This document shows, piece after piece, positions 4,154 to 21,969 of a stretch of 22,137 nt of DNA. The stretch lies in the IMG/VR virus record IMGVR_UViG_3300025732_003196, positions 1 to 22,137 of that record. The stretch is one strand, 5' to 3'. Numbering within the stretch: position 1 is the first letter of the stretch; each line of letters opens with the position of its first letter. Both the position numbers and the translations under genes were made by a program. The notes beneath the pieces were generated by a model that made no database searches, had not been told where the DNA came from, and saw only the letters and a program-made list of their open reading frames with translations. Source of the DNA: a virus.

Positions 4154-5158
4154 ATGAAAAAAGTACTAATTACAGGAATCACTGGGCAAGATGGATCTTA
4201 TCTTGCTGAACTATTACTCGAAAAAGGTTATGAGGTTCATGGGATTGTCAGAAGAGCATCCCTTATTAACACTCATCGTATTGACCACATTTATAATCGT
4301 ATTCATCTCCATTACGGCGACCTTACTGATTCTACCAATCTTATAAAGGTAATTCAGAAAGTTAAACCAAATGAGATTTATAATCTTGGTGCCCAGAGTC
4401 ATGTAAAGGTATCTTTTGAAATACCTGAATATACTGGACAAGTTGATGCGCTTGGAACTCTTCGTATTCTTGAAGCAGTTCGTATTCTTGGAATGGAGAA
4501 TGATGTTCGTATCTATCAGGCGTCTACTTCTGAACTTTACGGTAAAGTTCAAGAGATTCCTCAAACGGAAACAACTCCTTTCTATCCAAGAAGTCCTTAT
4601 GGTGTTGCTAAGATCTATGGATACTGGATTGTCAAAAACTATCGTGAGGCATATGGAATGTATGCTTGCACGGGGATTCTTTTTAATCATGAATCTCCTC
4701 GCCGTGGTGAGACATTTGTTACTCGTAAGATTACCAGAGGTTTCAAGGCAATGTCTGAGGGTAGGCAAACGGTTCTTAAACTGGGCAATCTAAATGCTCT
4801 TCGTGACTGGGGACACGCAAAGGATTATGTTGAGGCAATGTGGTTAATGCTTCAACAAGATGAACCTGATGACTTTGTGATTGCTACTGGTAAACAATAT
4901 TCAGTTCGTGAGTTTGTAGAAAGAGCAGCACCTTACTTTGGAATGGATATTGAATGGCAGTTTACTGATCAAGGAACTGAAGTTGGAATTGATAAGAACA
5001 CTGGATTAGTGCGTGTAATTGTTGATCCTAAATATTTCCGACCTGCTGAAGTAGAGACCTTATTAGGTGATGCCACTAAGGCAAAACAGAAATTAGGTTG
5101 GGAACCTAAGATTTCTTTTGATCAATTAGTTGAGGAAATGTGTATTAATGAAACTTGA
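4154..5158 (+). CDS. gmd: GDP-mannose 4,6-dehydratase
   Basis: 334 residues, an extended short-chain dehydrogenase. It converts GDP-D-mannose to GDP-4-keto-6-deoxy-D-mannose, the first committed step toward GDP-fucose and other 6-deoxy sugars. It shows the NADP-binding motif [10 protein letters not shown] (residues 7-16), the family signature [15 protein letters not shown] (33-47), catalytic T125 and E127 in STSELYGK, and Y149-x3-K153 in RSPYGVAK. The [16 protein letters not shown] block is also characteristic. The length is slightly short of the common 340-370, ending soon after the usual LGW motif. The next gene, fcl, starts within its last 11 bases. It appears less AT-rich than fcl, which suggests a separate origin. 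Confidence 0.95.
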
Positions 5159-6092
5159 TTCTAAAATATATGTTGCTGGGCATCGTGGGTTGGTTGGTTC
5201 TGCGATTATTAGACGATTAAATGAACAAGGTTATAATAATATTATAACTAAAGATAAAAAAGATTTGGACCTAAGAAGACAGTTAGACGTAGAGAATTTT
5301 TTTGATTATCATAAACCAGATTATGTTTTTCTTGCTGCTGCACGAGTTGGTGGAATCGGATACAATAAATCTTGCCCTGCAGATTTTATAAGAGATAATT
5401 TGCAAATACAGACTAATGTAATTGATAGTGCTTATCGCAATAAATGCAAAAAACTTGCTTTTCTTGGATCCGCTTGCATCTATCCAAAACATGCACCTGT
5501 TCCCATAAAAGAAGAGTATTTAATGATATCAGCTTTAGAGGAAACTAATATTGCATATTCTCTTGCCAAAATTTCTGGTTATATAATGTGCAAAAAATAT
5601 TCTGAGCAGTATGGATTCAATACAATATCAGTAATGCCTAATAATCTTTATGGTATTAATGACAATTTTAATATTGAAAGATGTCATGTAATTCCAAGTT
5701 TTATTAATAAATTTATTACTGCTAAAGATAATAATAGTCCAACTGTTACTTGTTTAGGTGATGGAAGTCCAACTAGAGAATTTTTATTTTCCGATGATCT
5801 TGCAGATGGACTTATATTTTTGATGAATAATTATGATGATTCTGATATAATAAATATTGGACCAGATAGAGAAGTGAGTATTAAAGAACTTTCTGAAATT
5901 ATTGCTAAACATGTTGGATATAAAGGATCTATTATTTGGGATACTGAAAAACCAAATGGAACTCCGAGAAGAGCATTAGATACTTCTAAAATAAAATCTT
6001 TAAACTGGATGGCTAAAACTAGTTTAGATGAAGGACTTAGAATTACTATTGAGTGGTTTATGAACAACAGGAGAACATATGAAAAAGTATAA
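5148..6092 (+). CDS. fcl: GDP-L-fucose synthase (or GDP-L-colitose synthase)
   Basis: 314 residues from ATG at 5148, overlapping gmd. It is a bifunctional epimerase/reductase that turns GDP-4-keto-6-deoxy-mannose into GDP-L-fucose using NADPH. Motifs: [10 protein letters not shown] at 11-20; S108 and C110 in GSACIYP; Y137-x3-K141 in [11 protein letters not shown]180 in CHVIPSF. These match the S107/C109/Y136/K140/H179 set of E. coli Fcl. The LYGINDNFN and [14 protein letters not shown] blocks are also typical. The related ColC enzyme acts on the 3-deoxy version of the same substrate. Because a ColD-like gene follows, this protein could serve either or both. Sequence resembles Fcl most. Confidence 0.9.
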
Positions 6093-7236
6093 ATGGCCTC
6101 TTATGAAAAATACTTTATCTTTTATGGATAGAGTAAAACTTGCTAAATTTGTTTTAACATCAGATAAATTTACTCAGGGTGAAAAGGTAGAGGAATTTGA
6201 AAGAAAATGGTCTCAATGGTTAGGTTGCAAACACTCAATATATGTAACTTCCGGAAGTACTGCTAATTTTCTTCTAGTTGCTGCAGTAATAGAAAAATAT
6301 AATCTTAAAAAAGGCGATAAAGTTTTACTCCCAACTTGTACTTGGGTTACAAATATCAATCCAATTTTTCAACTTGGATTAACTCCAGTTTTTTGTGATG
6401 TTAATCTAGAAGATTATAGTTTTGATGTTGAAAATCTAAAAAGAATATCACAAAAACATCCTGATATTAAACTCATATTTGTCACACATCTTCTTGGCAT
6501 TCCTGCAAACGTTCCAAAATATAAGGAGTATTTTCCCAATGCAGTTTTTCTAGATGATGTTTGCGAATCTCATGGATGTGTTATGGGCAGTAAAGTTGGT
6601 TCCAATAGTGTCGGATCAACATTTAGTTTTTACTTCGGTCATCATATGTCAACTATTGAAGGAGGGATGATATCTACGAATGATAGTGATCTTTATGATC
6701 TTATGAAACTAAAAAGGTCTCATGGACTTGCAAGAGTTTCTGATAAATTTAAAGAGTATATTCAAAAGAATCCAGAGATTGAAGAGTCATTTTTGTTTGT
6801 GACTGATGGATATAATTTTAGGAATACTGAAATTGGAGCAGTTCTTGGAATCAATCAACTAAAAAGACTTGATAAGTTTATCCAGATACGAAGAGAAAAC
6901 TATAGGAGATATGTTGAAATCGTTAATAAATCAGATAAACTTTTTAAGGTAACTTATAACTATGGTAATAGTTCTTTCTGTTTTCCTTTTATATGTAAGA
7001 CTAAAGAGATAAAAACAGAATTAATTAACCTACTTGAAAAGTATGGTGTGGAGTATCGTCCAGTTGTTGGAGGTAATTTATTAAGACAACCATATTTGAA
7101 TTATGAAGTTGAGTGTGCATCCAAAACTTTAAATTCTGATATAATTCATGAGAATGGAATTTACATTGGTAATAATCAGTTTGTGGGCAACCAAGAAATG
7201 AGAATTTTAGAAAATATTATTAATGAACTGGGATAA
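6079..7236 (+). CDS. colD: GDP-4-keto-6-deoxymannose 3-dehydratase, ColD type
   Basis: 385 residues, PLP-dependent DegT/DnrJ/EryC1 fold. In sugar aminotransferases of this family a lysine binds PLP; here the position holds H188 (SFYFGHHMSTIEGGM, 183-197). This is the same residue and number as the catalytic His188 of E. coli ColD, which removes the 3-hydroxyl of GDP-4-keto-6-deoxymannose on the way to GDP-colitose. Other matches to ColD are SSG/TSGSTANFL (58-65), DDVCESHGC (159-167), EESFxFV with GYNFRNTE, and GINQLKRLDKFIQIRREN. Family length is about 388, so it is complete. A good ribosome site (AGGAG) lies before the ATG, and it overlaps fcl by 14 bases. RfbH-like enzymes also use His, but act on CDP sugars; gmd next door favours the GDP route. 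Confidence 0.85.
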   Translation: MKKYKWPLMKNTLSFMDRVKLAKFVLTSDKFTQGEKVEEFERKWSQWLGCKHSIYVTSGSTANFLLVAAVIEKYNLKKGDKVLLPTCTWVTNINPIFQLGLTPVFCDVNLEDYSFDVENLKRISQKHPDIKLIFVTHLLGIPANVPKYKEYFPNAVFLDDVCESHGCVMGSKVGSNSVGSTFSFYFGHHMSTIEGGMISTNDSDLYDLMKLKRSHGLARVSDKFKEYIQKNPEIEESFLFVTDGYNFRNTEIGAVLGINQLKRLDKFIQIRRENYRRYVEIVNKSDKLFKVTYNYGNSSFCFPFICKTKEIKTELINLLEKYGVEYRPVVGGNLLRQPYLNYEVECASKTLNSDIIHENGIYIGNNQFVGNQEMRILENIINELG

Positions 7237-7239
7237 TCT

Positions 7240-8094
7240 ATGAAAATTAATCTTTATAATGATTTTCATAATGGGGACATCTTTTATTCAAGAATTATTA
7301 TTGAGCAACTCTTGAAGAATGGATTTGAGGTTTCCTATAATCACGGAATGAATCCAAAAATCTTGTCTGATTATGGCGACATTTATAATGGACCATTGAA
7401 TCCAAACATTCATGTGTCAAGAGGTGACAATAATTTTGAACAAAATATTATCAATACTTGGATTGGAAAAGAAGATGCTAAATTTGTAAAGGTCGATGCT
7501 TGTTCTTTCAGAGGATATGTGCCTCTTGCAAATGAAATCTTTGATTATTATGGAATCAAATATGATAATGAAGAGGACATTCTTCCAGTCGTAAGATTTA
7601 GTAATCTGTCATCAAATCAATTAGATAGAATAAGTGACATTTTGTATCCTTTTGGAATATCTTATGACAAGATTATTATGATATGTAATAATAATTGTTT
7701 ATCTGGGCAATCTGAAAACTTTGATTTTGATCCAGTTATAAGTTATCTCAGTCAAAATTATCCAAAATGTTTGTTTTTAGTCACTAATAATACCTCAGTG
7801 ATTAATGAAAATATAATCAGTGTCTCTACGATTACTGAAAAAGTTGACTGTGATTTATTGTTGATTTCTTATATCTCTAAAGTTTGTGATATAATAGTTG
7901 GTAGAGCATCTGGACCATATTGTTATACTCATATTAAAGAAAATCTTCTAGATGATAAAAAAACTTATATCAGTTTTACCTATTATTCTAGTGAAGGAAT
8001 CTGGTATCATAACTCTAAATCAAAACAAGTATGGTCAGATAATTATGATCTAAATCATATTTGTGAAACTATCGAAAATGAAATTAAAATCTAA
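7240..8094 (+). CDS. Unrecognised cassette protein, possibly GT-B glycosyltransferase, 284 aa
   Basis: 284 residues starting two bases after the colD stop. The N-terminus MKINLYNDFHNGDIFYSRI resembles the opening of GT9/heptosyltransferase-like proteins (a strand followed by G-D and a helix). A later stretch, KVCDIIVGRASGPYCYTHIK (about 220-240), resembles the D-x-x-x-G-x-x-S-G nucleotide-sugar-binding part of GT-B enzymes. There are no membrane segments or signal peptide. A glycan role is inferred from context and these weak similarities; no firm family can be named. Confidence 0.6.
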   Translation: MKINLYNDFHNGDIFYSRIIIEQLLKNGFEVSYNHGMNPKILSDYGDIYNGPLNPNIHVSRGDNNFEQNIINTWIGKEDAKFVKVDACSFRGYVPLANEIFDYYGIKYDNEEDILPVVRFSNLSSNQLDRISDILYPFGISYDKIIMICNNNCLSGQSENFDFDPVISYLSQNYPKCLFLVTNNTSVINENIISVSTITEKVDCDLLLISYISKVCDIIVGRASGPYCYTHIKENLLDDKKTYISFTYYSSEGIWYHNSKSKQVWSDNYDLNHICETIENEIKI

Positions 8095-8104
8095 GGAAAG
8101 TAAA

Positions 8105-8458
8105 ATGGAAACAAATTTTGGTGAAGTGATTGAAAGATGTCTCAAGGAGACTATCAACTCAGTTCTTTCTAGGAGAGAGTTGACTGAGGTTGAATATATT
8201 CAAACAGATAATCTTGGTGAAGTCGTTGAGAAACTTGCTATCCTTCATATTAGAACTTGGATGTTAGAGGATGCAATTCAAGATGCAACTACGGATCAGG
8301 AAATTGCAGAACTTAAGAGAAAGATTGATACTTGTTTTAAAGTTAAGAGACCGAAACTGGTTCAAGCAATTAATCTATTAGTTGAAGATTCGATTGCAAA
8401 CAATAAGTCTCTTCGTGAGGATTCTGTAAAGTTATATAAAGGTGTTTCTAATGAGTAA
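8105..8458 (+). CDS. Small helical protein of glycan clusters, 117 aa, unknown function
   Basis: ATG at 8105 is preferred because AAGGA sits just before it; an in-frame ATG at 8063 lies within the upstream gene. The 117 residues are nearly all helical. The central part (TDNLGEVVEKLAILHIRTW, then MLEDAIQDATTDQEIAELKR, KIDTCFKVKRPKLVQAINLL) resembles, by arrangement, small helical proteins such as DUF4254 and DUF6165 that occur within lipopolysaccharide clusters. Their biochemical role is not known to me. It overlaps the next gene by 8 bases, so its product is made together with the fucosyltransferase that follows. Confidence 0.65.
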   Translation: METNFGEVIERCLKETINSVLSRRELTEVEYIQTDNLGEVVEKLAILHIRTWMLEDAIQDATTDQEIAELKRKIDTCFKVKRPKLVQAINLLVEDSIANNKSLREDSVKLYKGVSNE

Positions 8459-9260
8459 GGTTAAGTTAAATCTTATTGGAGATTCATTTACACATCTTAC
8501 TCACGGCAATAAAGGATACTCAGTTCATGGTAAAGAGTCAAAAACTATGGAATGGGTATTTGATAATAATGTTGGTACATCTTTCTATGTTGATGGGAAA
8601 ATGTATGAGGCATTTTCTGATAATGTCAAAGGTGTAAAATATGGATGGTTACTTGAATCTAAATATGTCACTCCAGAAATTGTTAGTGATGTAAGAAATA
8701 AGTATAAAGAATACTTTGAAGTTTTTAGATATATCTTTACACACAATAAAGAATTTCTTGATCTTGACGAAAGATTTAAGTGGTGTCCTCCTAATGGATC
8801 TTGGATTAAGGAACCAAAGATCTATCCAAAATCAAAGATAATTTCATTTATCACATCAAATAAAAACTCTACTCCCGGTCATAAATTGAGACTTCAATGG
8901 GTAGATATGATTGGCGATCAAGTAGATCTTTATGGTAGAGGATTTAAAGAGATCTCAAGTAAAGAAGAAGGTTTATGTGATTATATGTTCTCTGTTGCAA
9001 TCGAAAATGGTTTCTATGAATCTTATTACACTGAAAAAATTCTAGATTGTTTTGCTACTGGAACTATACCTGTGTATAAAGGAACTCCTGACATTGGAAA
9101 TTTCTTTAATCTTGAAGGTATCGTTGAACTTTCTGAAGAGTTTGAAGTTTCTGAGGAAATATACTATAATAAGATGGAAGCAATTGAAGATAACTTGGAA
9201 AGAGTTAAGAAAATAGAAGTATTGGAAGATTTTATTTTAAGAACATATGATATCGTTTAA
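8451..9260 (+). CDS. GT10 fucosyltransferase (alpha-1,3/1,4 type)
   Basis: 269 residues from ATG at 8451. The C-terminal half has the GT10 donor-binding signature: FSVAIENGFYESYYTEK (180-196) followed by ILDCFATGTIPVYKGTPDI (197-215), with E185, N186, E195 and K196 at the positions that hold GDP-fucose in this family. The N-terminal acceptor domain (1-150) is less conserved, as usual. GT10 enzymes move fucose from GDP-L-fucose to GlcNAc or glucose, as in Lewis-type antigens of Helicobacter. It lacks an N-terminal anchor and the amphipathic tail repeats of H. pylori enzymes. It lies between the GDP-fucose genes and a GT11 gene, which overlaps its end by 14 bases. Confidence 0.88.
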   Translation: MSKVKLNLIGDSFTHLTHGNKGYSVHGKESKTMEWVFDNNVGTSFYVDGKMYEAFSDNVKGVKYGWLLESKYVTPEIVSDVRNKYKEYFEVFRYIFTHNKEFLDLDERFKWCPPNGSWIKEPKIYPKSKIISFITSNKNSTPGHKLRLQWVDMIGDQVDLYGRGFKEISSKEEGLCDYMFSVAIENGFYESYYTEKILDCFATGTIPVYKGTPDIGNFFNLEGIVELSEEFEVSEEIYYNKMEAIEDNLERVKKIEVLEDFILRTYDIV

Positions 9261-10050
9261 CCATCTTGGAAATCTTGGAAGACTTGGAAACCAAATGTTT
9301 CAATATTCTGCTTTAAAGGGCATAGCATTAAAACATGGTTATGATTATTGTATTCCTCCTAGAAGTTTGTTTGGGGTAAAAGATCATAATGTAAAATATT
9401 CCGAAAGTATTCTTTATGATATTTTTGATTTGGAAAAAAATAATAATATTGAAATCACCTCAAATGCTATTTTATACGAAAACCAGTTTCATGTTAATGA
9501 AGATATTTTAGAAAAGTGTCCCGATAAAGTAGATCTTTATGGATATTTTCAATCAGAAAAATACTTTTTGCACATAAAAGACGAAATAAAGAAAGATTTT
9601 ACTTTTAAATCAAATTTGCTTTTAGAATGTAAAAAAATTTTTAATGATTTTTTAGTAAATCAAGAAGTTATTTCTTTGCATATAAGACGTGGTGATTATA
9701 TTATCAATGATAATCATCCTCTCCAATCAATTGAGTATTATAAAAATGCATTAAAATATTTTAATGAAAATATTCCGGTTTTAGTTTTTTCTGATGATCC
9801 AACTTGGTGCTCAGAGCAAAAAATGTTTGAATCTGATCGTTTTATGATATCTGAAAAAAATACTACAGATATTGATCTTTGTTTGATGACGTTGTGTGAC
9901 TATCATATAATAGCAAATAGTTCTTTTAGTTGGTGGGGTGCTTGGTTAGCAGATAGTAAAAAAGTTATAGCACCTAAAAAATGGTTTGCTGGTGACTGTA
10001 TAAATCATAATACCAGAGATTTGTATTGTTTGGATTGGATTTTAATATAG
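9247..10050 (+). CDS. GT11 alpha-1,2-fucosyltransferase
   Basis: 267 residues with all the GT11 motifs: GNLGRLGNQMFQYSALKG (8-25), HIRRGDY (145-151), VFSDDPTWC (180-188) and HIIANSSFSWWGAWL (220-234). The family transfers L-fucose in alpha-1,2 linkage to galactose, making the H-type structure, and is found in bacterial O-antigen clusters. The length is typical of bacterial forms (about 280-300), complete at both ends, and cytoplasmic. Its start overlaps the GT10 gene by 14 bases. Together with Gmd and Fcl it makes a self-contained fucosylation set. The acceptor is unknown. Confidence 0.93.
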   Translation: MISFNHLGNLGRLGNQMFQYSALKGIALKHGYDYCIPPRSLFGVKDHNVKYSESILYDIFDLEKNNNIEITSNAILYENQFHVNEDILEKCPDKVDLYGYFQSEKYFLHIKDEIKKDFTFKSNLLLECKKIFNDFLVNQEVISLHIRRGDYIINDNHPLQSIEYYKNALKYFNENIPVLVFSDDPTWCSEQKMFESDRFMISEKNTTDIDLCLMTLCDYHIIANSSFSWWGAWLADSKKVIAPKKWFAGDCINHNTRDLYCLDWILI

Positions 10051-10059
10051 GAGAAAAAA

Positions 10060-10872
10060 ATGAAAAAAGTGCAGCATTTTATTTTTAGTTGGTCAAGAGT
10101 TACAGAAGATGTAAAAAAAATTCAAAAAGATCTTCAAGATTCTGGGTATCAAGTTGATGTAATTAACTGTGATGATAATTCACAGGATGGATGGATTAAT
10201 ATTGGTAATGATTATTGGTTGTACGGACAATTTTTTACTTGTATAAATCATTTTAATTTTGATAATGATTATCTAAATGTAATGTTGGGTGATGTTGAAA
10301 CTGATAGTTACCCTGAACTTTTTAGGAGAACCGAAGAAGTCGTGAGTGAGGTTGAAAATGTTGGTATTTATGCACCAGATTATGGTAATAAAGAAAAATG
10401 TTGGTGGATTATTGATAATGTTTCTGTAGACAAATTTGATAATTATAATACTGTGGAATTTGATGATCCAAATCTTGTCGCTGGCACAATGTGCGATTTT
10501 TTCTATCTTACTATCCACAAAGATATTGTGGTTGAATATAAAGATTTTATTGATTTTCTTCTAAAAGAACATCCAGACTTTAAATTTTGGAAAGGTCATG
10601 GATGGGGTATTGATTTAATCCTTTGTGCCTTTGCACATATGCAAAATAAATTTGTAATTAGGGATAAGAAAATTGTCTTAGGTCATGGTATTGATAATGG
10701 TCATTCTGGTCCAGATTCTTCAATTAACTATAATAAATTAATAGAAGAATACAATAAATTTATGGGATCAAAATCTCAAAGAGCTCAAAGTAAAATAAAA
10801 GCAGCTCTTGATAGGTGCCCTCCACACGAAAACAAAACTGTTTATACTACTATTGAGGAACTTTGGAAATGA
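10060..10872 (+). CDS. Putative glycosyltransferase, family unassigned, 270 aa
   Basis: 270 residues with a strong ribosome site (AGGAG) before the ATG. The opening (QHFIFSWSRVTEDVKKIQKD) and VDVINCDD resemble the first two strands of GT-A folds. NVMLGDVETDSYPELFRR at about 73-90 holds a D-x-E set where GT-A enzymes keep their metal-binding D-x-D. A region around 190-210 (KFWKGHGWGIDLILCAFAHM) resembles the W-G-x-D segment of GT2-type enzymes, and GHGIDNGHSG could hold the last metal ligand. The C-terminal 40 residues are basic and helical. Sits between the H-type fucosyltransferase and the GT6 gene. A transferase role is likely but not proven. Confidence 0.65.
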   Translation: MKKVQHFIFSWSRVTEDVKKIQKDLQDSGYQVDVINCDDNSQDGWINIGNDYWLYGQFFTCINHFNFDNDYLNVMLGDVETDSYPELFRRTEEVVSEVENVGIYAPDYGNKEKCWWIIDNVSVDKFDNYNTVEFDDPNLVAGTMCDFFYLTIHKDIVVEYKDFIDFLLKEHPDFKFWKGHGWGIDLILCAFAHMQNKFVIRDKKIVLGHGIDNGHSGPDSSINYNKLIEEYNKFMGSKSQRAQSKIKAALDRCPPHENKTVYTTIEELWK

Positions 10873-11327
10873 ATAAGAATTCTAAAATTTTTGTTGCTGG
10901 TAATTTTAATGCTTATCTTTTTCACCCAAGAGATTGGATATATTGGGGATATAGAGAAGATTTAATAAATTTTTTTGATATCCCATTTCAAGTAAATGAA
11001 GAATGCCAAAGATTAAATGTCAATAAACAAAAATGTGAAAACAATGGAGAATATTTTAAACTTTTCACTAGACCAGAAACATATTTGGGGTCATATTATG
11101 CAAGTAGATTTGATGAGAGAGTTGTAAAGATGGTAAATAACCAAAGTGAATATCTTTATGATGATGCTCCTAAAATTGAAGAAGCATATGCTGTTAGTAA
11201 TGAAATTATGACTAAACTTTTTAAATCATTTCCAAGAACAGGTATTAACTTTGTTTGGCCAAAAAATAATATTTGGCATTTTCCAATCTCATTGCAGCAT
11301 GAGATTTGGCATGAAGAAGGTATGTAA
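10869..11327 (+). CDS. Unrecognised cassette protein, 152 aa
   Basis: ATG at 10869 overlaps the previous stop (ATGA); a TTG six bases upstream is also in frame. The 152 residues are rich in aromatics (FHPRDWIYWGYREDLINFF; NFVWPKNNIWHFPISLQHEIWHEE). No glycosyltransferase or nucleotide-binding motif could be seen, and there are no membrane segments. Repeated W-H pairs near the end could bind sugar or metal; this is only a guess. Context places it in the fucose part of the cassette. Confidence 0.6.
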   Translation: MNKNSKIFVAGNFNAYLFHPRDWIYWGYREDLINFFDIPFQVNEECQRLNVNKQKCENNGEYFKLFTRPETYLGSYYASRFDERVVKMVNNQSEYLYDDAPKIEEAYAVSNEIMTKLFKSFPRTGINFVWPKNNIWHFPISLQHEIWHEEGM

Positions 11328-11345
11328 TTTTATTTTTTTTTTACT

Positions 11346-12050
11346 ATGAAAATCTGTATCCTTAATATAGCGACAAATAAATATATTCAATTTGTTGAAT
11401 CTTTACTTGATTCTGTAGACGAAAATTTTTTAAATGGACACGATATTTCTGCATTAGTGTTTACTAACCATGAAATTGAAGAATCTTCGGATAATGTAAA
11501 GATTTCTCAAATTGATCATGAACCTTGGCCGATTCCCACTCTAAAAAGATATCATTATTTTCTTAAAGAAAGGGAGTATATTTCTCAATTTGATTATTGC
11601 TTTTATATGGATGTTGATATGAGAATTGAAGGAAAAGTTGGTGATGAAATTTTAGGAGATCTTGTAGCAACTCAACATCCTGGATTCTGGTTTAAGACTA
11701 ATCAAGAGTTTTCATATGAACGCCGTCCAGAGTCAACTGCATATGTTCCTTTTGGTGAAGGAAAGATGTATTATGCAGGTGGATTCAATGGTGGAAAACC
11801 TGAACATTTTCTAAAAATGTCAGAAACTATTGTATCGAATATTGAAAAAGACTTTGAGAAAGGATTGATTGCAGTGTGGCATGATGAGTCACATATGAAT
11901 CGTTATTTGATTGATAATCCTCCCACTGTAGAATTGAATTCTTCTTATTGTTATCCAGAAGCAGTTCGATTCAATCCTGGTGGATGGAATGTTCCTTTTG
12001 AACCAAAGATTGTTGCTCTTGAAAAAAATCATTCTCAAGTTCGCTCATGA
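11346..12050 (+). CDS. GT6 glycosyltransferase (ABO blood-group transferase family)
   Basis: 234 residues. All recognisable GT6 blocks are present: FYMDVDMRIE with the metal-binding D89-V-D91; ATQHPGFWF (108-116); YERRPESTAYVP (124-135); YYAGGFNGG (142-150); and AVWHDESHMNRYL (176-188), the family's donor/acceptor loop containing E181. The family transfers Gal or GalNAc in alpha-1,3 linkage to galactose, in the ABO enzymes to galactose already carrying alpha-1,2-fucose. Many bacterial members carry N-x-N in place of D-x-D; this one keeps D-x-D as in vertebrate enzymes. It has no membrane anchor. The nearby GT11 gene would supply the expected acceptor. The next gene starts within the stop (ATGA). 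Confidence 0.9.
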   Translation: MKICILNIATNKYIQFVESLLDSVDENFLNGHDISALVFTNHEIEESSDNVKISQIDHEPWPIPTLKRYHYFLKEREYISQFDYCFYMDVDMRIEGKVGDEILGDLVATQHPGFWFKTNQEFSYERRPESTAYVPFGEGKMYYAGGFNGGKPEHFLKMSETIVSNIEKDFEKGLIAVWHDESHMNRYLIDNPPTVELNSSYCYPEAVRFNPGGWNVPFEPKIVALEKNHSQVRS

Positions 12051-12799
12051 TTATAGACTTACTTGATGTTCCTGTTTACTACATTAATCTCGATAGTGAT
12101 GAAGAGAAGAGAAAATCTACAGAGACTCTTCTCAAAAGAACGGGGTTTAGAAATGTAATCAGAGTTTCTGCAATCTTTCATCCAAAAGGTAGAATTATTG
12201 GATGTGCTCGTTCACATTATGAGGTCTTAAAAGAAGCAAAACCACCATTCATTATCATTGAAGATGACTGTGCTCTCAATAAAGACTTTGTAAATGAGAT
12301 AAAAGTCCCAGATGATTCTGATGCACTTTACCTGGGAATCTCTCACTGGGGTCGATATTTGAATCACTCTGGACCATATGTTCATTATGAGAAAGTTGAT
12401 GATGATATTGTAAGAGTTTATAACATGCTTGCAACACATGCAATTATGTATTTGTCACAATCATATGTTGACATATGCAAAAGAATATCATATCATTATG
12501 GATATGAAGTAGAAGGACATCTTGACATTGGATTTGCAGAAATCCATAAATTTTATAAAGTTTATAGTTATAATGAACCCCTTCTTAGACAATATGATTG
12601 GAGTGCTGTAACATCCGGAAAATTGAGCGAAGTCTCAATAGACAAGATGAAATCCGAATCATTGTTTAATAGTATTTTGAAATCAGATGAAAATTATTAT
12701 AAACTTAATTCTGAATTTAAATCTCCCATTAAACCACTTATAGAGATGAGAGATGTAAATGGAATTCCTGGATATTATTTACCGACGAGGATAATGTGA
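12047..12799 (+). CDS. GT25-like glycosyltransferase
   Basis: 250 residues. The N-terminus PVYYINLDSDEEKR (9-22) is the GT25 opening (LPS beta-1,4-galactosyltransferase type). RIIGCARSHYEVLKEA (49-64) matches the G-C-x-x-S-H-x-x-x-x block, and FIIIEDDC (68-75) carries the metal-binding acids. The substrate cannot be assigned, since GT25 members move galactose, glucose or other sugars. The C-terminus ends RDVNGIPGYYLPTRIM; a related ending occurs as a remnant at 13624-13704. It is joined by ATGA to the GT6 gene and by an overlapping GTG to the next gene, so all three are co-translated. Confidence 0.82.
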   Translation: MIIDLLDVPVYYINLDSDEEKRKSTETLLKRTGFRNVIRVSAIFHPKGRIIGCARSHYEVLKEAKPPFIIIEDDCALNKDFVNEIKVPDDSDALYLGISHWGRYLNHSGPYVHYEKVDDDIVRVYNMLATHAIMYLSQSYVDICKRISYHYGYEVEGHLDIGFAEIHKFYKVYSYNEPLLRQYDWSAVTSGKLSEVSIDKMKSESLFNSILKSDENYYKLNSEFKSPIKPLIEMRDVNGIPGYYLPTRIM

Positions 12800-13705: not shown

Positions 13706-14653
13706 ATGTATATTTCTTCTTGTCCTCTTCGAGTATCTTTGTTTGGTGGATCAACAGATAATCCATACTTTATTGAAAAATATGGATTTGGATCTGTGAT
13801 TAGTTTTAGTTGTAACTTGAAAACTTACATTACTCTTCATGAAGATAAACTTGGATATAATATGCAAGGTCGTAAGTATATCGTAAATTATTCTAAAAGA
13901 GAGGAGACTGAATATATTGTTGATATTAAAAATGAACTTGTTCGTATAGTTTTAAATTATTTTGGATGCTTTCCACTTACTGTTAGTATGACTAGTGATG
14001 CTTATTCGCAAGGAAGTGGACTTGCATCATCATCTTCTTATATTATTTCTCTCATTAAATGTATTTCAATGTTTCGTGATTTACATTTAACTGATATTGA
14101 AATATGTAAACTTGCTCTTAAATTGGAGCAAGAAATAAATCCTTATTGCGGATATCAAGATCCTTATGGGTGTGGTATTGGTGGATTTAAAAAAATTGAT
14201 TTTGAAAAAGGTGGTATTATTAAATATGACTTTTTATCTACTGATTTGTTTAAGCATTATGACACACATTTAGTCTTTACTGGTGTAACTAGAAATTCTA
14301 AAAATGTTCTTCAAGATGTAACTTTAAATATCGATAAGTCATTGCCTTTATTGAAAACGGTTGATGATGCTTATGATGCTTTAAGATATAAAGATTATTC
14401 TAAGTTTTTGCAGTTACTAAACTATAGTTGGGAACAGAAAAAGCAAACTAGCTCATTAATTACTGAAAATGAAGAAATTAAAATCATAGATAAAATTCTC
14501 ACTGAAAGTGAAGATGTTATTGCTCATAAACTTTGTGGAGCTGGTAATGGTGGGTTCTTTCTTGTTTTTTCAAAAATAAACAGCTTGAAAATTCCATATA
14601 AATCGATTAAAATAAAAGTCGAATCTAATGGCGTTGTTGGACATAGGTTATGA
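13706..14653 (+). CDS. hddA: D-glycero-D-manno-heptose 7-phosphate kinase-like GHMP kinase (HddA type)
   Basis: 315 residues, a GHMP-family sugar kinase. Motifs: CPLRVSLFGGSTDNPYF (6-22), the HddA-type opening; the ATP loop QGSGLASSSSYI (102-113); and the third motif HKLCGAGNGGFFLVFS near the C-terminus. HddA phosphorylates D-glycero-alpha-D-manno-heptose 7-phosphate at C1. Related sugar 1-kinases (L-fucokinase type) share the fold, so fucose salvage is an alternative, but the directly following GmhA-like gene argues for heptose. Length is near the family's usual 340. It overlaps the next gene by four bases (ATGA). Confidence 0.82.
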   Translation: MYISSCPLRVSLFGGSTDNPYFIEKYGFGSVISFSCNLKTYITLHEDKLGYNMQGRKYIVNYSKREETEYIVDIKNELVRIVLNYFGCFPLTVSMTSDAYSQGSGLASSSSYIISLIKCISMFRDLHLTDIEICKLALKLEQEINPYCGYQDPYGCGIGGFKKIDFEKGGIIKYDFLSTDLFKHYDTHLVFTGVTRNSKNVLQDVTLNIDKSLPLLKTVDDAYDALRYKDYSKFLQLLNYSWEQKKQTSSLITENEEIKIIDKILTESEDVIAHKLCGAGNGGFFLVFSKINSLKIPYKSIKIKVESNGVVGHRL

Positions 14654-15153
14654 ATCCGTTTACAGAATACATTAAAGCACTTCAGAGTGCTCATATTGAG
14701 GAGCAATTTAAAAAGTTTAGAAATGCTTTTGATAGATATCATAATATTATCATTCTTGGAAATGGTGGTAGTAACGCAGTAGCATCTCATATTTCACAGG
14801 ATTATGTGAAATTTAATAATAAAAATTCGATGGTATTTTCCGACCCATCAATGCTGACATGTTTTATTAATGATTTTGGAATGGAAAATGCATATTGCAA
14901 ATTCCTTCAGTATTATGCAAAATCAGATACTCTTTGTATTTTAATTAGTTCCGGTGGAGAATCTAAAAACATTGTAAATTGCATCAAATATTGTGAAAAT
15001 AATTCTATACCATATGGTATTTTAACTGGATTTGGATTATCAAATAAAGCAAGAAGTATTGCAAATAATGCTCTTTGGGACTATCATATAGATAGTAGTG
15101 ATTATGGAATTGTTGAGTGTGTCCACCAAATTTTTCTTCATGGTGTAGTATGA
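14650..15153 (+). CDS. gmhA: Phosphoheptose isomerase (GmhA-like SIS protein)
   Basis: 167 residues with a SIS fold. It would convert sedoheptulose 7-phosphate to D-glycero-D-manno-heptose 7-phosphate, the first step to nucleotide-heptoses. Seen: IILGNGGSNAVASHISQDY (34-52), the phosphosugar loop; ILISSGGESKNI, the second serine-rich loop; and the C-terminal ECVHQIFLHGVV with the histidine used in catalysis. The usual catalytic glutamate (E65 in E. coli) appears as D51. The protein is shorter than the typical 190 and ends right after the last helix motif. It overlaps the next gene by four bases. Substrate follows from the neighbouring kinase and phosphatase genes. Confidence 0.85.
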   Translation: MNPFTEYIKALQSAHIEEQFKKFRNAFDRYHNIIILGNGGSNAVASHISQDYVKFNNKNSMVFSDPSMLTCFINDFGMENAYCKFLQYYAKSDTLCILISSGGESKNIVNCIKYCENNSIPYGILTGFGLSNKARSIANNALWDYHIDSSDYGIVECVHQIFLHGVV

Positions 15154-15872
15154 GATATTGTTTTGATATTGATGGAACTCTTTGTCATACTCCAAATAAT
15201 GAGCTAGGAAAACCTGATTATGCAAATGCAAAACCTTTTCCATTTATGGTGGAACAGGTTAATCGTTTATATGAAGAAGGTCATTATATTATTATTCAAA
15301 CTGCTAGGGGAAAATCATCTGGAATAGATCATAGTAACCTCACTAAAAGACAACTTGATACTTGGGGATACAAGTATCATGATTTATTTCCCATGTTTTC
15401 TAAACCAAACGCTGATATTTTTATTGATGATAAAGCCATTAACTTTGACGAGTGGAAACAAAAACAACCTTTAATCAGAGGAATTACTGCGGGATCGTTT
15501 GATTTAATTCATCCCGGATATGTAAAAATGTTTAGAGATTGTAAAATGTATTGCAATCATTTTACAATTGCTTTGCATGAAGATCCATCTTTAGAAAGAC
15601 ATAATAAACTATCTCCTATACATTCTATTGAAGAAAGGTTAGAAATACTTAGTTCTATTAAGTATATCGATGATATTGTGGTTTATCATACTGAAGACAA
15701 GTTTCATGATTATTTAAAAAGCGGTAAATACAATATTCGTTTTCTTGGTGATGATTATAGTGATGGGTCTTATACTGGTAAAGATATTCCCATAAAAGTA
15801 ATTTTTGTTGATAGGAGTCATGGATACTCTACAACTGAATTAAAAAGAAAAATTTTTAAATCTTGGAGGTAA
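15150..15872 (+). CDS. Fused HAD phosphatase and nucleotidyltransferase (heptose pathway)
   Basis: 240 residues from ATG at 15150, which overlaps the gmhA stop. Residues 1-105 are a small HAD phosphatase: YCFDIDGTLC (nucleophile D6, D8), QTARG (motif II, T51) and DIFIDDKA (D93-D94). Residues 108-240 are a cytidylyltransferase-fold domain: RGITAGSFDLIHPGYVKMF, EERLEILSSIKYIDDIV and GYSTTELKRKI, as in the C-terminal half of HldE and in TagD. Two roles that are normally separate genes, removal of a phosphate (GmhB) and transfer of the nucleotide, would be joined here. The catalytic HxGH motif reads H121-P-G-Y124, so the second histidine is tyrosine. The nucleotide (ADP, GDP or CDP) cannot be told. 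Confidence 0.83.
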   Translation: MRYCFDIDGTLCHTPNNELGKPDYANAKPFPFMVEQVNRLYEEGHYIIIQTARGKSSGIDHSNLTKRQLDTWGYKYHDLFPMFSKPNADIFIDDKAINFDEWKQKQPLIRGITAGSFDLIHPGYVKMFRDCKMYCNHFTIALHEDPSLERHNKLSPIHSIEERLEILSSIKYIDDIVVYHTEDKFHDYLKSGKYNIRFLGDDYSDGSYTGKDIPIKVIFVDRSHGYSTTELKRKIFKSWR

Positions 15873-15877
15873 AAAAA

Positions 15878-16774
15878 ATGAAGTCATTAGTAACAGGTGG
15901 TGCAGGATTTATTGGTTCCAATCTTGTAGATAAATTAATTGATTTGGGACATCAAGTTATTGTAATTGATGATGAAAGTGCAGAATCAAATGTTCAATTT
16001 TATTGGAATGATAATGCTTTAAACTACAAATATGATATTAGAGATTATAAAAATACTCGCCCTCTATATGATGGTGTTGATTATGTTTTTCATCTTGCGG
16101 CAGAATCAAGGATTCAACCAGCAATTGAAAATCCAATTAATGCGGTGAGTCTAAACTCTGTTGGTACATGTACTGTTCTTCAATGTGCTCGTGAAGCGGG
16201 TGTTAAACGTGTAATGTATTCATCCACTTCTGCTGGATATGGTATGAATCCTTTTCCGAATGATGAGACTCAACCTGATGATTGTTTGAATCCATACTCA
16301 GTATCTAAGGTAAACGGTGAAAAGTTATGTAAAATGTATACCGATTTATATGGACTTCCCACAGTTTCATTCAGATATTTTAATGTTTACGGTGAAAGAC
16401 AACCAGTTCGTGGTCAGTACGCTCCCGTAATTGGAATTTTTCTTAGACAACTTACTGCAGGAGAACCTCTTACTATTGTTGGTGATGGTGAGCAACGTAG
16501 AGATTTTACTTATGTTGGTGATGTTGTAAATGCAAATATTTTAGCGGCAACAAAAGATGTTAATGATGAAGTATTTGGTCAGGTTTATAATGTTGGTTCC
16601 GGTAAGAACTATTCAATTAATGAAATTGCTGGAATGATTTCTGATAATATTATCAATATTCCTCCTAGAATTGGAGAAGCAAGAACAAGTCTTGCAAATA
16701 ATCAAAAACTTCGTTCTACTTTTGGATGGGAACCCACTATGAAAATTGAAGATTGGGTTGGGAAACAACTATGA
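15878..16774 (+). CDS. NAD-dependent sugar-nucleotide epimerase/dehydratase
   Basis: 298 residues from ATG at 15878, with a strong ribosome site (GGAGG) before it; an earlier in-frame ATG is within the upstream gene. An extended short-chain dehydrogenase: TGGAGFIGSNL (6-16), VFHLAAESR (70-78), MYSSTSAGYG (113-122, catalytic S/T) and NPYSVSKVNGEKL (138-150, Y140 and K144). FRYFNVYGERQPVRGQYAPV resembles the UDP-glucose/UDP-GlcNAc 4-epimerase group (GalE, WbpP). It could instead modify the heptose made by the genes before it. Shorter than the usual 320-340; ends GWEPTMKIEDWVGKQL. Joined by ATGA to the next gene. Confidence 0.82.
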   Translation: MKSLVTGGAGFIGSNLVDKLIDLGHQVIVIDDESAESNVQFYWNDNALNYKYDIRDYKNTRPLYDGVDYVFHLAAESRIQPAIENPINAVSLNSVGTCTVLQCAREAGVKRVMYSSTSAGYGMNPFPNDETQPDDCLNPYSVSKVNGEKLCKMYTDLYGLPTVSFRYFNVYGERQPVRGQYAPVIGIFLRQLTAGEPLTIVGDGEQRRDFTYVGDVVNANILAATKDVNDEVFGQVYNVGSGKNYSINEIAGMISDNIINIPPRIGEARTSLANNQKLRSTFGWEPTMKIEDWVGKQL

Positions 16775-19101: not shown

Positions 19102-20592
19102 ATGTTTAAATCCGCTTTCGCAGCAACTCTTGCTGCAACTCCACTTGTCGCTGGTGCTGCGTTCGCAGAACCTTATGGCACGTATGGACCTTATGTTGAA
19201 TCCCAAGTTACGAGCATCGCACAATTCTCTGATGTTCGTCCTACTGACTGGGCATATCAAGCACTCAACAACCTTGTAGAGCGTTATGGTTGTGTTGCTG
19301 GTTATCCTAACGGCACTTATGGTGGTGGTCAGTCAATGACCCGTTATGAGGCAGCAGCACTTTTGAATGCTTGCCTGGATCGTGTAACCGAAGTTACTGA
19401 TGAACTGAAGCGTCTTCAAACCGAATTTGCTGCTGAACTTGCAGTTATTCGTGGTCGTGTAGACAAACTGGAAGCACAAGTTGGTCAACTAGAAGCAACT
19501 CAGTTCTCTACTACCACCAAACTGCGTGGTGAAGCAACCTTCGTTCTTGGTGGTGTAGATGACTATCGCACTAAATTAGGTAGTGTTACTCCTTCTAAAA
19601 CCGATGATGTCACCAAAACTGCCTTTAACTATGATGTTCGTCTGAACTTTGATACTTCGTTCACTGGTCAAGACCTGCTTCGTACTCGTCTTCGTTCTTC
19701 AAACTTCAGTGCTGATCCTTTCGGTTCGTCTTCATCACTCTTCAAACTGGACAAGGCAGACAATTTCTCCAGTGCTAATGGTGATAATGTAGTTCTTGAT
19801 CGTCTCTACTATCAGTTCCCTGCGTTCAACAACACCACTACTCTGACTGCTGGTGCTAAAGTTCGCAACACTGAAATGTCTTGGGTTCCTACTGCTTACA
19901 AGTCTGATATCCTTGACTTCTTTGCTGTTGCTGGTGCTCCTGGTGTTTATAACAAGGCAACTGGTGCTGGTTTCGGTGCTCAGTGGAAGCAAAAAGGTGA
20001 GCAAGGATTTGTTGCTGGTGTGAACTATGTTGCTCAAGCAGGTCAAGATAGTACCCGTGGTGAGTTTGATGAATCTGGTGCTCTGAATACTCTGGCGCAA
20101 GTTGGTTATCGTGGTACTAACTGGGGTGCTGCATTTGGTTATCGTTATGGTACTGAAGGCACCCGTGTTCGCACCTACAACGGTCTGAACGGTGCTTCTG
20201 GTACTCTGGTTCCTGGTCAAACCTCTAATGGATATGCTCTGAATGCATACTGGCAACCTACCCAATCTGGTTGGATTCCTTCGGTCTCTGCTGGTTATGG
20301 TTGGAATACTGTAAGTGGTACTGAAAGTGCTGCTACTAACAGTGAGTCGTGGTTTGCTGGTCTTCAGTGGGCAGATGTATTTGCCAAGGGTAACTCTGCT
20401 GGCGTTGCTGTTGGTCAAGCACCTACGGGTGAAGATCTTGAAGATGCAACGATGCTTGAAATCTTCTACAAGTATCAAGTGTCTGATAACATCAGCATTA
20501 CTCCTGCAATCTTCTATGCAAGTGACAATCAACGTCTTGCTAAAGATTCCTCAAACTGGGGTGGTGTAATTCAGACAACCTTTAAGTTCTGA
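19102..20592 (+). CDS. SLH-domain outer-membrane porin of cyanobacterial type
   Basis: 496 residues. A signal peptide is clear (MFKSAFAATLAATPLVAGAA, cut after AFA at 23). An SLH domain (about 40-90: FSDVRPTDWAYQALNNLVER, then TRYEAAALLNACLDR) would anchor it to the cell wall. A coiled coil follows (95-135: DELKRLQTEFAAELAVIRGR). The rest is a beta-barrel rich in G, S, T and aromatics, ending FKF as outer-membrane proteins do. This is the Som/OprB-like porin plan of cyanobacteria; in cyanophages such genes accompany pstS. It may help phosphate or other nutrient entry during infection. A terminator follows directly. Base composition is richer in GC than the cassette. Confidence 0.92.
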   Translation: MFKSAFAATLAATPLVAGAAFAEPYGTYGPYVESQVTSIAQFSDVRPTDWAYQALNNLVERYGCVAGYPNGTYGGGQSMTRYEAAALLNACLDRVTEVTDELKRLQTEFAAELAVIRGRVDKLEAQVGQLEATQFSTTTKLRGEATFVLGGVDDYRTKLGSVTPSKTDDVTKTAFNYDVRLNFDTSFTGQDLLRTRLRSSNFSADPFGSSSSLFKLDKADNFSSANGDNVVLDRLYYQFPAFNNTTTLTAGAKVRNTEMSWVPTAYKSDILDFFAVAGAPGVYNKATGAGFGAQWKQKGEQGFVAGVNYVAQAGQDSTRGEFDESGALNTLAQVGYRGTNWGAAFGYRYGTEGTRVRTYNGLNGASGTLVPGQTSNGYALNAYWQPTQSGWIPSVSAGYGWNTVSGTESAATNSESWFAGLQWADVFAKGNSAGVAVGQAPTGEDLEDATMLEIFYKYQVSDNISITPAIFYASDNQRLAKDSSNWGGVIQTTFKF

Positions 20593-20597
20593 TAAAT

Positions 20598-20643
20598 CAC
20601 TCATAACCTGAGTGGAAGCACCCATTTTTTGGGTGCTTTTTTT
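20598..20643 (+). terminator. Rho-independent terminator after porin
   Basis: A first hairpin CACTCA/TGAGTG (20598-20603 and 20609-20614) is followed by AGCACCCA (20617-20624) paired with TGGGTGCT (20630-20637) and a run of T. The second is a classic terminator, directly after the porin stop. Confidence 0.92.
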
Positions 20644-20656
20644 ATGAAATCAAAAC

Positions 20657-20701
20657 CTTAACCAAATCTTAGTGGACTTTAATTTTTCTTTCTAGTAAAA
20701 T
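20657..20701 (+). promoter_or_regulatory. Pho-box-like promoter of pstS
   Basis: CTTAACCA (20657-20664), CTTAGTGG (20668-20675) and TTAATTTT (20679-20686) repeat with an 11-base period, matching the cyanobacterial Pho-box unit CTTAACCT imperfectly. TAAAAT at 20696-20701 is a fair -10, nine bases after the last repeat. In this layout PhoB would take the place of a -35. Expected outcome: pstS is switched on by the host PhoR/PhoB system under phosphate shortage. Confidence 0.6.
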
Positions 20702-20725
20702 CATTTACGAAGTTATTCACTTTTT

Positions 20726-21688
20726 ATGAAACTCAAAAACTTTATTGCTATTGGTCTGGTTGCCTCTCCTGTTGCGGCATTTGCTGGACCCGCTCTGAAT
20801 GGTGCTGGTGCCACCTTCCCTGCACCGATTTATCAACGATGGTTCCAAGATTATGCACTAACTTCCGGTAGTCGTGTAAATTATCAGTCAGTTGGTTCTG
20901 GTGCTGGTGTTCGTCAATATATTGCGGGAACAGTTGACTTTGGGGCATCCGACGAACCCATCAAATCCTCCGAAGCAGCAAAGGTGAAGCGTGGTGTCGT
21001 TCAAATCCCGATGGTGGGTGGAACGATTGCCGTTGCTTACAACAAACCTGGATGTACCCTGAAACTCACACAGAAACAAACTGTGGATGTCTTTTCTGGA
21101 CGCATTAAGGATTGGAAGCAAGTTGGATGTTCTGCTGGACCTATGAAAGTGGTTTATCGTTCTGACGGTTCTGGAACTACATTTGCTTTCACAAATTCTC
21201 TTGATACCTTTGGTGGTTGGGGTTCTGGTGTAGGTAAGTCAGTTAAATGGCCTACTGGAGTTGGTGGTAAAGGTAACGAAGGTGTTGCTGGAACTGTCAA
21301 GAACACTCCAGGTGCCATTGGTTATGTAAATACTGGATTTGTAAAAGCAAACAAACTCCAAGCAGCAGCAATTCAAAACAAGGCAGGTAAGTTCGTTCTT
21401 CCTTCTGCTGCTTCTGGTGCCGTTGCTCTCAATAATATCACTCTGGATGCCAATCTTGCTGGAGAGAATCCTAATCCTTCTGGTGCAAATGCTTATCCCA
21501 TTTCTACTTTGACTTGGATTCTTGCATACAAAACTGGTAATGGAGAGAAGGCAGATGATATTCGTGCTGCTCTCAAGTATGCTCTAAGTTCTAAAGCACA
21601 GAGTATTGCCGATGATCTTGGTTATGTTCCTCTGAGTGGTTCTATTCTTAACCGAGCACGGATTGCTATAGATCGTATCGGTAAGTGA
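20726..21688 (+). CDS. pstS: Phosphate-binding protein PstS
   Basis: 320 residues, the periplasmic phosphate-binding part of the Pst ABC transporter. Signal peptide MKLKNFIAIGLVASPVAAFA, cut after AFA at 20. Family motifs: GAGATFPAPIYQRWF (27-41), VGSGAGVRQYI (56-66), FGASDEPI (72-79), YRSDGSGTTFAF (144-155, phosphate-binding S/G/T residues) and GAIGYVNTGF. The length is typical. Cyanophage PstS is thought to keep phosphate uptake going for phage DNA synthesis, working with the host PstCAB since no transporter genes are seen here. Preceded by a Pho-box-like site. Confidence 0.95.
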   Translation: MKLKNFIAIGLVASPVAAFAGPALNGAGATFPAPIYQRWFQDYALTSGSRVNYQSVGSGAGVRQYIAGTVDFGASDEPIKSSEAAKVKRGVVQIPMVGGTIAVAYNKPGCTLKLTQKQTVDVFSGRIKDWKQVGCSAGPMKVVYRSDGSGTTFAFTNSLDTFGGWGSGVGKSVKWPTGVGGKGNEGVAGTVKNTPGAIGYVNTGFVKANKLQAAAIQNKAGKFVLPSAASGAVALNNITLDANLAGENPNPSGANAYPISTLTWILAYKTGNGEKADDIRAALKYALSSKAQSIADDLGYVPLSGSILNRARIAIDRIGK

Positions 21689-21706
21689 TGAAACTCTGAC
21701 AGTCGG

Positions 21707-21720
21707 GACGGGAAACCGTC
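21707..21720 (+). other. GAAA-tetraloop hairpin after pstS
   Basis: GACGG, GAAA, CCGTC: a five-base-pair stem capped by a stable GNRA loop, 18 bases after the pstS stop and directly abutting the next -35 box. Possible 3'-end stabiliser or weak terminator; the T-run is missing. Confidence 0.5.
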
Positions 21721-21749
21721 TTGACAAAACTTTACATTTCCTATATAAT
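21721..21749 (+). promoter_or_regulatory. Consensus sigma-70 promoter of hli
   Basis: TTGACA (21721-21726) and TATAAT (21744-21749) are both perfect, with a 17-base spacer, 25 bases before the hli ATG. Expected to be very strong with host polymerase early in infection. Confidence 0.92.
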
Positions 21750-21774
21750 ATTGTTGTAAATCGTTACAAAGACA

Positions 21775-21969
21775 ATGACTGTTACGACTAATGATCGTGG
21801 ACAAATGAATATGTGGGCGAAAGAACCCGTAATGTATTATCAGAACTACGGAATGCTGACTCCCAACCAAGTCAAGGAGAGGACTAATGGAAGATGGGCG
21901 ATGATGGGATTTGTTGCTGGTATTATTTCATATGCTATCACTGGTAACTTCTTCTTCGGTGTCTTCTGA
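21775..21969 (+). CDS. hli: High-light-inducible protein (Hli)
   Basis: 64 residues, one transmembrane helix. The chlorophyll-binding signature ERTNGRWAMMGFVAG (E, N, R and M/G positions of the ExxNGRxAMxGF motif) occupies about 35-49. Hlis protect photosystem II and carry off excess energy; cyanophage copies are thought to keep photosynthesis running in the infected cell. The N-terminal 30 residues are polar, the C-terminus short and hydrophobic. Driven by the consensus promoter just upstream. Its stop overlaps the next ATG. Confidence 0.95.
   Translation: MTVTTNDRGQMNMWAKEPVMYYQNYGMLTPNQVKERTNGRWAMMGFVAGIISYAITGNFFFGVF

Follow-up and report, generated by a model that had tools for sequence, protein, structure and literature searches.

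Three architectures have been listed for NDP-heptose enzymes, and the phosphatase of the pathway has been described as absent from viruses (PMC11461863, PMC11573728). The closest described systems to the gene analysed here are TagD, the glycerol-3-phosphate cytidylyltransferase (1coz, 2b7l); HldC and the C-terminal domain of HldE, the heptose-1-phosphate adenylyltransferases; GmhB, the heptose 1,7-bisphosphate 7-phosphatase; AfhF, the D-arabinose 1,5-bisphosphate phosphatase of phage HY126 (9iqw); and the GDP-alpha-heptose pathway of HddA and HddC, in which HddC is a GalU-like (SNT-fold) enzyme (PMC6981941). In the window, the whole 22,137-nucleotide stretch that we analysed, which comes from a virus record, a single marine phage gene joins a HAD phosphatase to an HxGH-type nucleotidyltransferase (NT) and stands in the following cassette:

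13706..14653, plus strand: HddA-type GHMP heptose-7-phosphate kinase (NF049969, 5e-27; 4n3o, 1e-23)
14650..15153, plus strand: GmhA-type SIS isomerase, sedoheptulose-7-phosphate isomerase (NF001628, 1e-13; 1x94, 6e-10)
15150..15872, plus strand: fused HAD phosphatase and HxGH-type NT, 240 aa (reading frame, profiles, AlphaFold model)
15150..15467, plus strand: HAD phosphatase domain, residues about 1-106 (match to AfhF, 9iqw; conserved catalytic residues)
15468..15869, plus strand: TagD/HldE-fold NT domain, residues about 107-240 (1coz superposition, TIGR02199, PF01467)
15510..15521, plus strand: HPGY motif, H121-P122-G123-Y124, in place of HxGH (alignment with 1coz; invariant in the clade)
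15881..16774, plus strand: SDR nucleotide-sugar epimerase/dehydratase, the last cassette gene (PF01370, 2e-57)

The fused open reading frame is intact from its ATG at 15150, which overlaps the stop of the preceding gene (ATGA), to its stop at 15872; the coordinates and motif given in a preliminary description of the sequence were exact. Domain searches and an AlphaFold model both agreed with that description in placing a HAD phosphatase and a TagD/HldE-like domain in one chain. The HAD domain matched PHROG 1238 (2e-25) and the solved structure 9iqw (3e-12), and the NT domain matched Pfam CTP_transf_like (1e-9), TIGR02199 rfaE_dom_II (5e-16), the TagD model (2e-14) and 1coz (3e-13). The whole-chain model had a pLDDT of 90.6 and a pTM of 0.83, and it superposed on TagD (1coz) over 125 aligned residues with a Z of 18.0 and an rmsd of 2.0. 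Chance juxtaposition of two genes was ruled out by 85 distinct fused homologues, and the median dN/dS of close pairs was low in both domains (0.07 for HAD, 0.11 for NT). The fused gene is annotated as hypothetical in the record of the Synechococcus phage SynMITS9220M01, a megablast search with the cluster returned no close phage record, and no heptose fusion of this kind was found in the open-licence papers searched. The fusion offers a further architecture for NDP-heptose synthesis and a concrete candidate for the missing viral phosphatase step. One relative cleanly lacks the HAD domain (L211:4968-5429), and in another a linker frameshift, whether real or a sequencing error, splits the gene (L180:4642-5387).

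The gene order hddA-gmhA-fusion-epimerase recurs in the window, in the isolated phage SynMITS9220M01, in viral contigs and in genomes of the Prochlorococcus family. In one of the latter (G1180) the cassette lies on a 1.94-Mb contig, so the gene is not confined to phages; its neighbours there are what we take, from their sequences, to be ilvC-like and clpP-like genes. The isomerase scored 44.1 bits against TIGR00441 (cut-off 209.45) and the kinase 95.2 bits against NF049969 (cut-off 600), yet GmhA and HddA were their best families. The SDR gene likewise stayed below each equivalog cut-off shown (TIGR02197 HldD, 7e-35). Because the kinase, the isomerase and the NT all fall far under their equivalog cut-offs, exact substrates are not fixed. 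The cassette resembles the HddA/HddC pathway in its HddA-type kinase and GmhA, and differs from it in that an HxGH-fold NT occupies the place of HddC; an HddC-like enzyme was found near one of 132 fused loci, counted within the fetched flanks and with some contigs fetched twice.

These data make it probable that the fused gene encodes an active two-step NDP-heptose enzyme serving a surface-glycan cluster, both phage-borne and picocyanobacterial, in which the tyrosine of the NT motif arose once. The reactions that we infer, with their anomer and nucleotide, would run as follows. GmhA would give D-glycero-D-manno-heptose 7-phosphate, to which the HddA-type kinase would add the 1-phosphate; the HAD domain would then take off the 7-phosphate of the heptose 1,7-bisphosphate, and the attached HPGY domain would join heptose 1-phosphate to a nucleotide, yielding an NDP-heptose that the SDR enzyme may afterwards modify. 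Counting against heptose are the solved structure closest to the HAD domain, from an enzyme that acts on arabinose 1,5-bisphosphate, a stand-alone HPGY enzyme in a chromosome record without a GmhA match (G005), and an HAGH relative that is linked to hddA-gmhA.

The replacement of H-x-G-H by HPGY, also reported in the preliminary description, is real: in the sequence alignment Y124 falls on H17 of TagD and H121 on H14. We collected 118 distinct HPGY NTs from the fetched loci, namely 85 joined to HAD, 31 that stand unfused, and one each fused to GmhA and to HddA. The remaining NTs read HAGH, HPGH, HIGH, HVGH, HRGH, HYGH, HTGH, HLGH or TPAH and all kept the fourth histidine; two rows of the tally were unreadable, and L123 ends before the motif. 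The invariance rests on profile searches, which covered 386 cyanobacterial, 369 gammaproteobacterial and 395 flavobacterial-order genomes, or on patterns without tyrosine, and the genome-scan pattern that contained HPGY was not counted. Among the loci fetched with these profiles and the tyrosine-free virus patterns, no HPGH member was found inside the clade. Both tyrosine codons are in use (TAT in 94 sequences, TAC in 24), and this, with the invariance, ruled out a sequencing error or a pseudogene. A maximum-likelihood tree of 112 rows placed every HPGY row on one side of a single branch (support 100/98), beside an HAGH group from Flavobacteriales and phages. The change from histidine to tyrosine has a single origin and is fixed in the clade, and tyrosine in 118 of 118 clade relatives argues for a functional though unusual enzyme and against a broken one. 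It offers a natural, ancient and fixed change in a motif usually held inviolable, with histidine relatives at hand for comparison.

The NT domain shares with TagD the fold and the equivalents of D11, H14, R55, R113 and S118, which map to D118, H121, R163, R222 and S227 and are invariant in the alignment. Unlike TagD, it has Y124 in place of H17, is fused to a HAD domain and lies among heptose-type rather than teichoic acid genes. With the HldE C-terminal domain and HldC it shares the fold, the TIGR02199 match and adjacent genes for other heptose steps; it differs from them in its HPGY motif, its HddA-type rather than PfkB-type partner kinase and its phosphatase fusion. Membership of the superfamily was clear from PF01467 (39.2 bits, gathering score 21) and from the fold, H121 being the one retained histidine of the motif and tyrosine the fourth residue. 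The scores against the two equivalogs, TIGR02199 for HldE/RfaE domain II (58.8 bits, cut-off 181.5) and TIGR01518 for TagD (53.8 bits, cut-off 165.4), fell below their cut-offs. An (F/L)xxGRSTT motif with arginine before STT marks the promiscuous heptose nucleotidyltransferases of the STTR5 type (PMC11573728); the NT reads VDRSHGYSTT, with tyrosine preceding STT, and does not match it. Its R-S-H-G-Y-S-T-T is the counterpart of the RTEGISTT-like motif of TagD, and its R-x-x-G-x-S-T-T form resembles the signature of cytidylyltransferases (PMC6060094). Because of this TagD-like R-x-H-x-Y-S-T-T form, we would guess that the nucleotide is CTP.

As for Tyr124, it probably still contacts the NTP phosphates, and a use of tyrosine in catalysis, as first suggested, is plausible. 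Alignment position 143 is histidine in 96% of the HPGY clade, glutamine in the sister group and aspartate in most others, and we would guess that this switch could compensate for Tyr124. The motif of eukaryotic tyrosyl-tRNA synthetase is HVAY, which would be a precedent for tyrosine in the fourth place, and our paper search gave no confirmation of it. More tentatively, the HPGY enzymes may form a catalytically distinct HxGH subclass in which Tyr124, perhaps aided by His143, replaces the second catalytic histidine, and which, with an AfhF-type HAD, would be a non-orthologous replacement of GmhB and HddC in the alpha-heptose pathway of cyanophages and picocyanobacteria.

The fusion partners and neighbours of the NT bear on whether the tyrosine goes with a different substrate, another early suggestion, which was borne out in part. 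A huge phage (L085) carries an HPGY NT fused to HddA, a MAG contig (L094) carries one fused to GmhA, and fusion to HAD, HddA and GmhA in turn across genomes is a classical sign of a shared pathway. Where a kinase is in reach, HPGY NTs go with the HddA type, and 25 HPGH, TPAH or HRGH NTs, including HPGH enzymes of related phages, go with the PfkB type, which favours the suggestion. Against it, an HAGH enzyme adjoins hddA-like and gmhA genes in a phage-like stretch of G008 (L141) and breaks a strict rule of tyrosine with HddA and histidine with PfkB kinases. Many HPGY enzymes also stand alone, in marine Flavobacteria and Gammaproteobacteria, with no recognisable heptose genes nearby, and the Arcticimaribacter chromosome record that carries one (G005) gave no GmhA match; tyrosine is therefore not a heptose signature. 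In two gammaproteobacterial loci (L120, L112) the stand-alone gene immediately follows what we take, from sequence, to be rpsA-like and lapB-like genes, a context that suggests an envelope role.

Histidine and tyrosine enzymes both occurring with hddA-gmhA would also fit a neutral, lineage-specific variant in an otherwise ordinary NDP-heptose synthetase. We consider this unlikely, since the position is invariant on either side of the split (118 with tyrosine; the HxGH, TPAH and HRGH relatives keep histidine), unlike a neutral site.

Five loci (L031, L038, L040, L238, L092) carry a PfkB kinase, an HPGH NT and a cupin followed by the HddA-GmhA-fusion(HPGY)-epimerase module, and may make two activated sugars side by side. 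Two phage genes, PSSM2_312 (NC_006883.2) and AVU42_gp194 (NC_028955.1), are labelled cysteine dioxygenase; the Cupin_2 match of PSSM2_312 is barely above the cut-off, and this match within an NDP-heptose gene block makes a sugar-related cupin likelier than a cysteine dioxygenase.

The HAD domain carries the DxD, Thr/Ser, Lys and DD motifs (D6, D8, T51, K85, D93, D94), and of the 86 fused proteins in the alignment nearly all keep its catalytic residues; L259 is the degenerate case. Two heptose-type steps in one chain, as first described, are supported, with the nuance that the HAD domain differs in type from GmhB (HAD-IIIA): it shares with GmhB the proposed reaction, comes from a different HAD subfamily and had no match to the GmhB model TIGR00213 up to E 0.1. 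The nearest solved relative is AfhF (40% identity, Foldseek), with the same HAD core and motif residues; AfhF stands alone in a pentose pathway, whereas the HAD of the window is fused and lies beside heptose-type genes. The product of the cassette could accordingly be an activated sugar other than heptose, such as a pentose (arabinose), with a 5-carbon sugar phosphate as the substrate of the isomerase, the kinase and the AfhF-like HAD, much as in DNA arabinosylation by phages, and the HY126 region also has a SIS isomerase annotated as arabinose-5-phosphate isomerase. This is improbable in view of the other genes: the solved matches of the isomerase were GmhA and DiaA, with KdsD absent among them; the best solved relatives of the kinase were the heptose kinases 4n3o and 3k85; and the genes around the cassette are glycosyltransferases, not DNA-modification genes. 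In one genome (G271) the HAD domain has lost motif II and D93, the NT residues are intact, and a GmhB above the curated cut-off lies 2.8 kb from the fused gene. GmhB was absent at E up to 0.001 from G001, G002, G003 and G1180, all with an intact HAD, several genomes being incomplete, so that G271 is the sole genome of five in its family with canonical GmhB; the pairing of HAD decay with a nearby GmhB, a single case, favours heptose over arabinose. A GmhB match in the huge phage W01 was set aside, as from its sequence it resembles a polynucleotide-kinase-type protein. Stand-alone HADs adjoining a PfkB kinase and an HPGH NT in P-SSM2-type phages are also phosphatase candidates.

That the NT has lost its transferase activity, as was also suggested, and now serves the HAD as a partner for structure or sugar binding is very unlikely: mutating the second histidine of the motif abolishes activity in the related C. 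ammoniagenes FAD synthetase (PMC3509593), but some IleRS2 (class I tRNA synthetases) remain active with a naturally altered HXGH (PMC10485003), and here the tyrosine is invariant and uses both codons, the mapped active-site residues are invariant, dN/dS indicates purifying selection, free-standing HPGY enzymes exist, the NT has three different fusion partners, and the HAD rather than the NT decays in one relative.

The family that the HAD domain matches, phrog_1238, is HAD-fold, not the SIS-fold GmhA, and carries the name phosphoheptose isomerase both in PHROGs and in RefSeq phage annotation (PSSM2_311 of NC_006883.2 and many T4-like phages), probably a name-transfer error. Elsewhere in the window, positions 4154-12799 hold GDP-mannose dehydratase-like and fucose-synthase-like genes with GT10, GT11 and GT6 glycosyltransferases, and this phage cluster could make a fucosylated, ABO-like glycan. 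After the glycan cluster, positions 19102-21969 carry what we take, from sequence, to be porin-like, PstS-like and small hli-like genes, which are typical of cyanophages.
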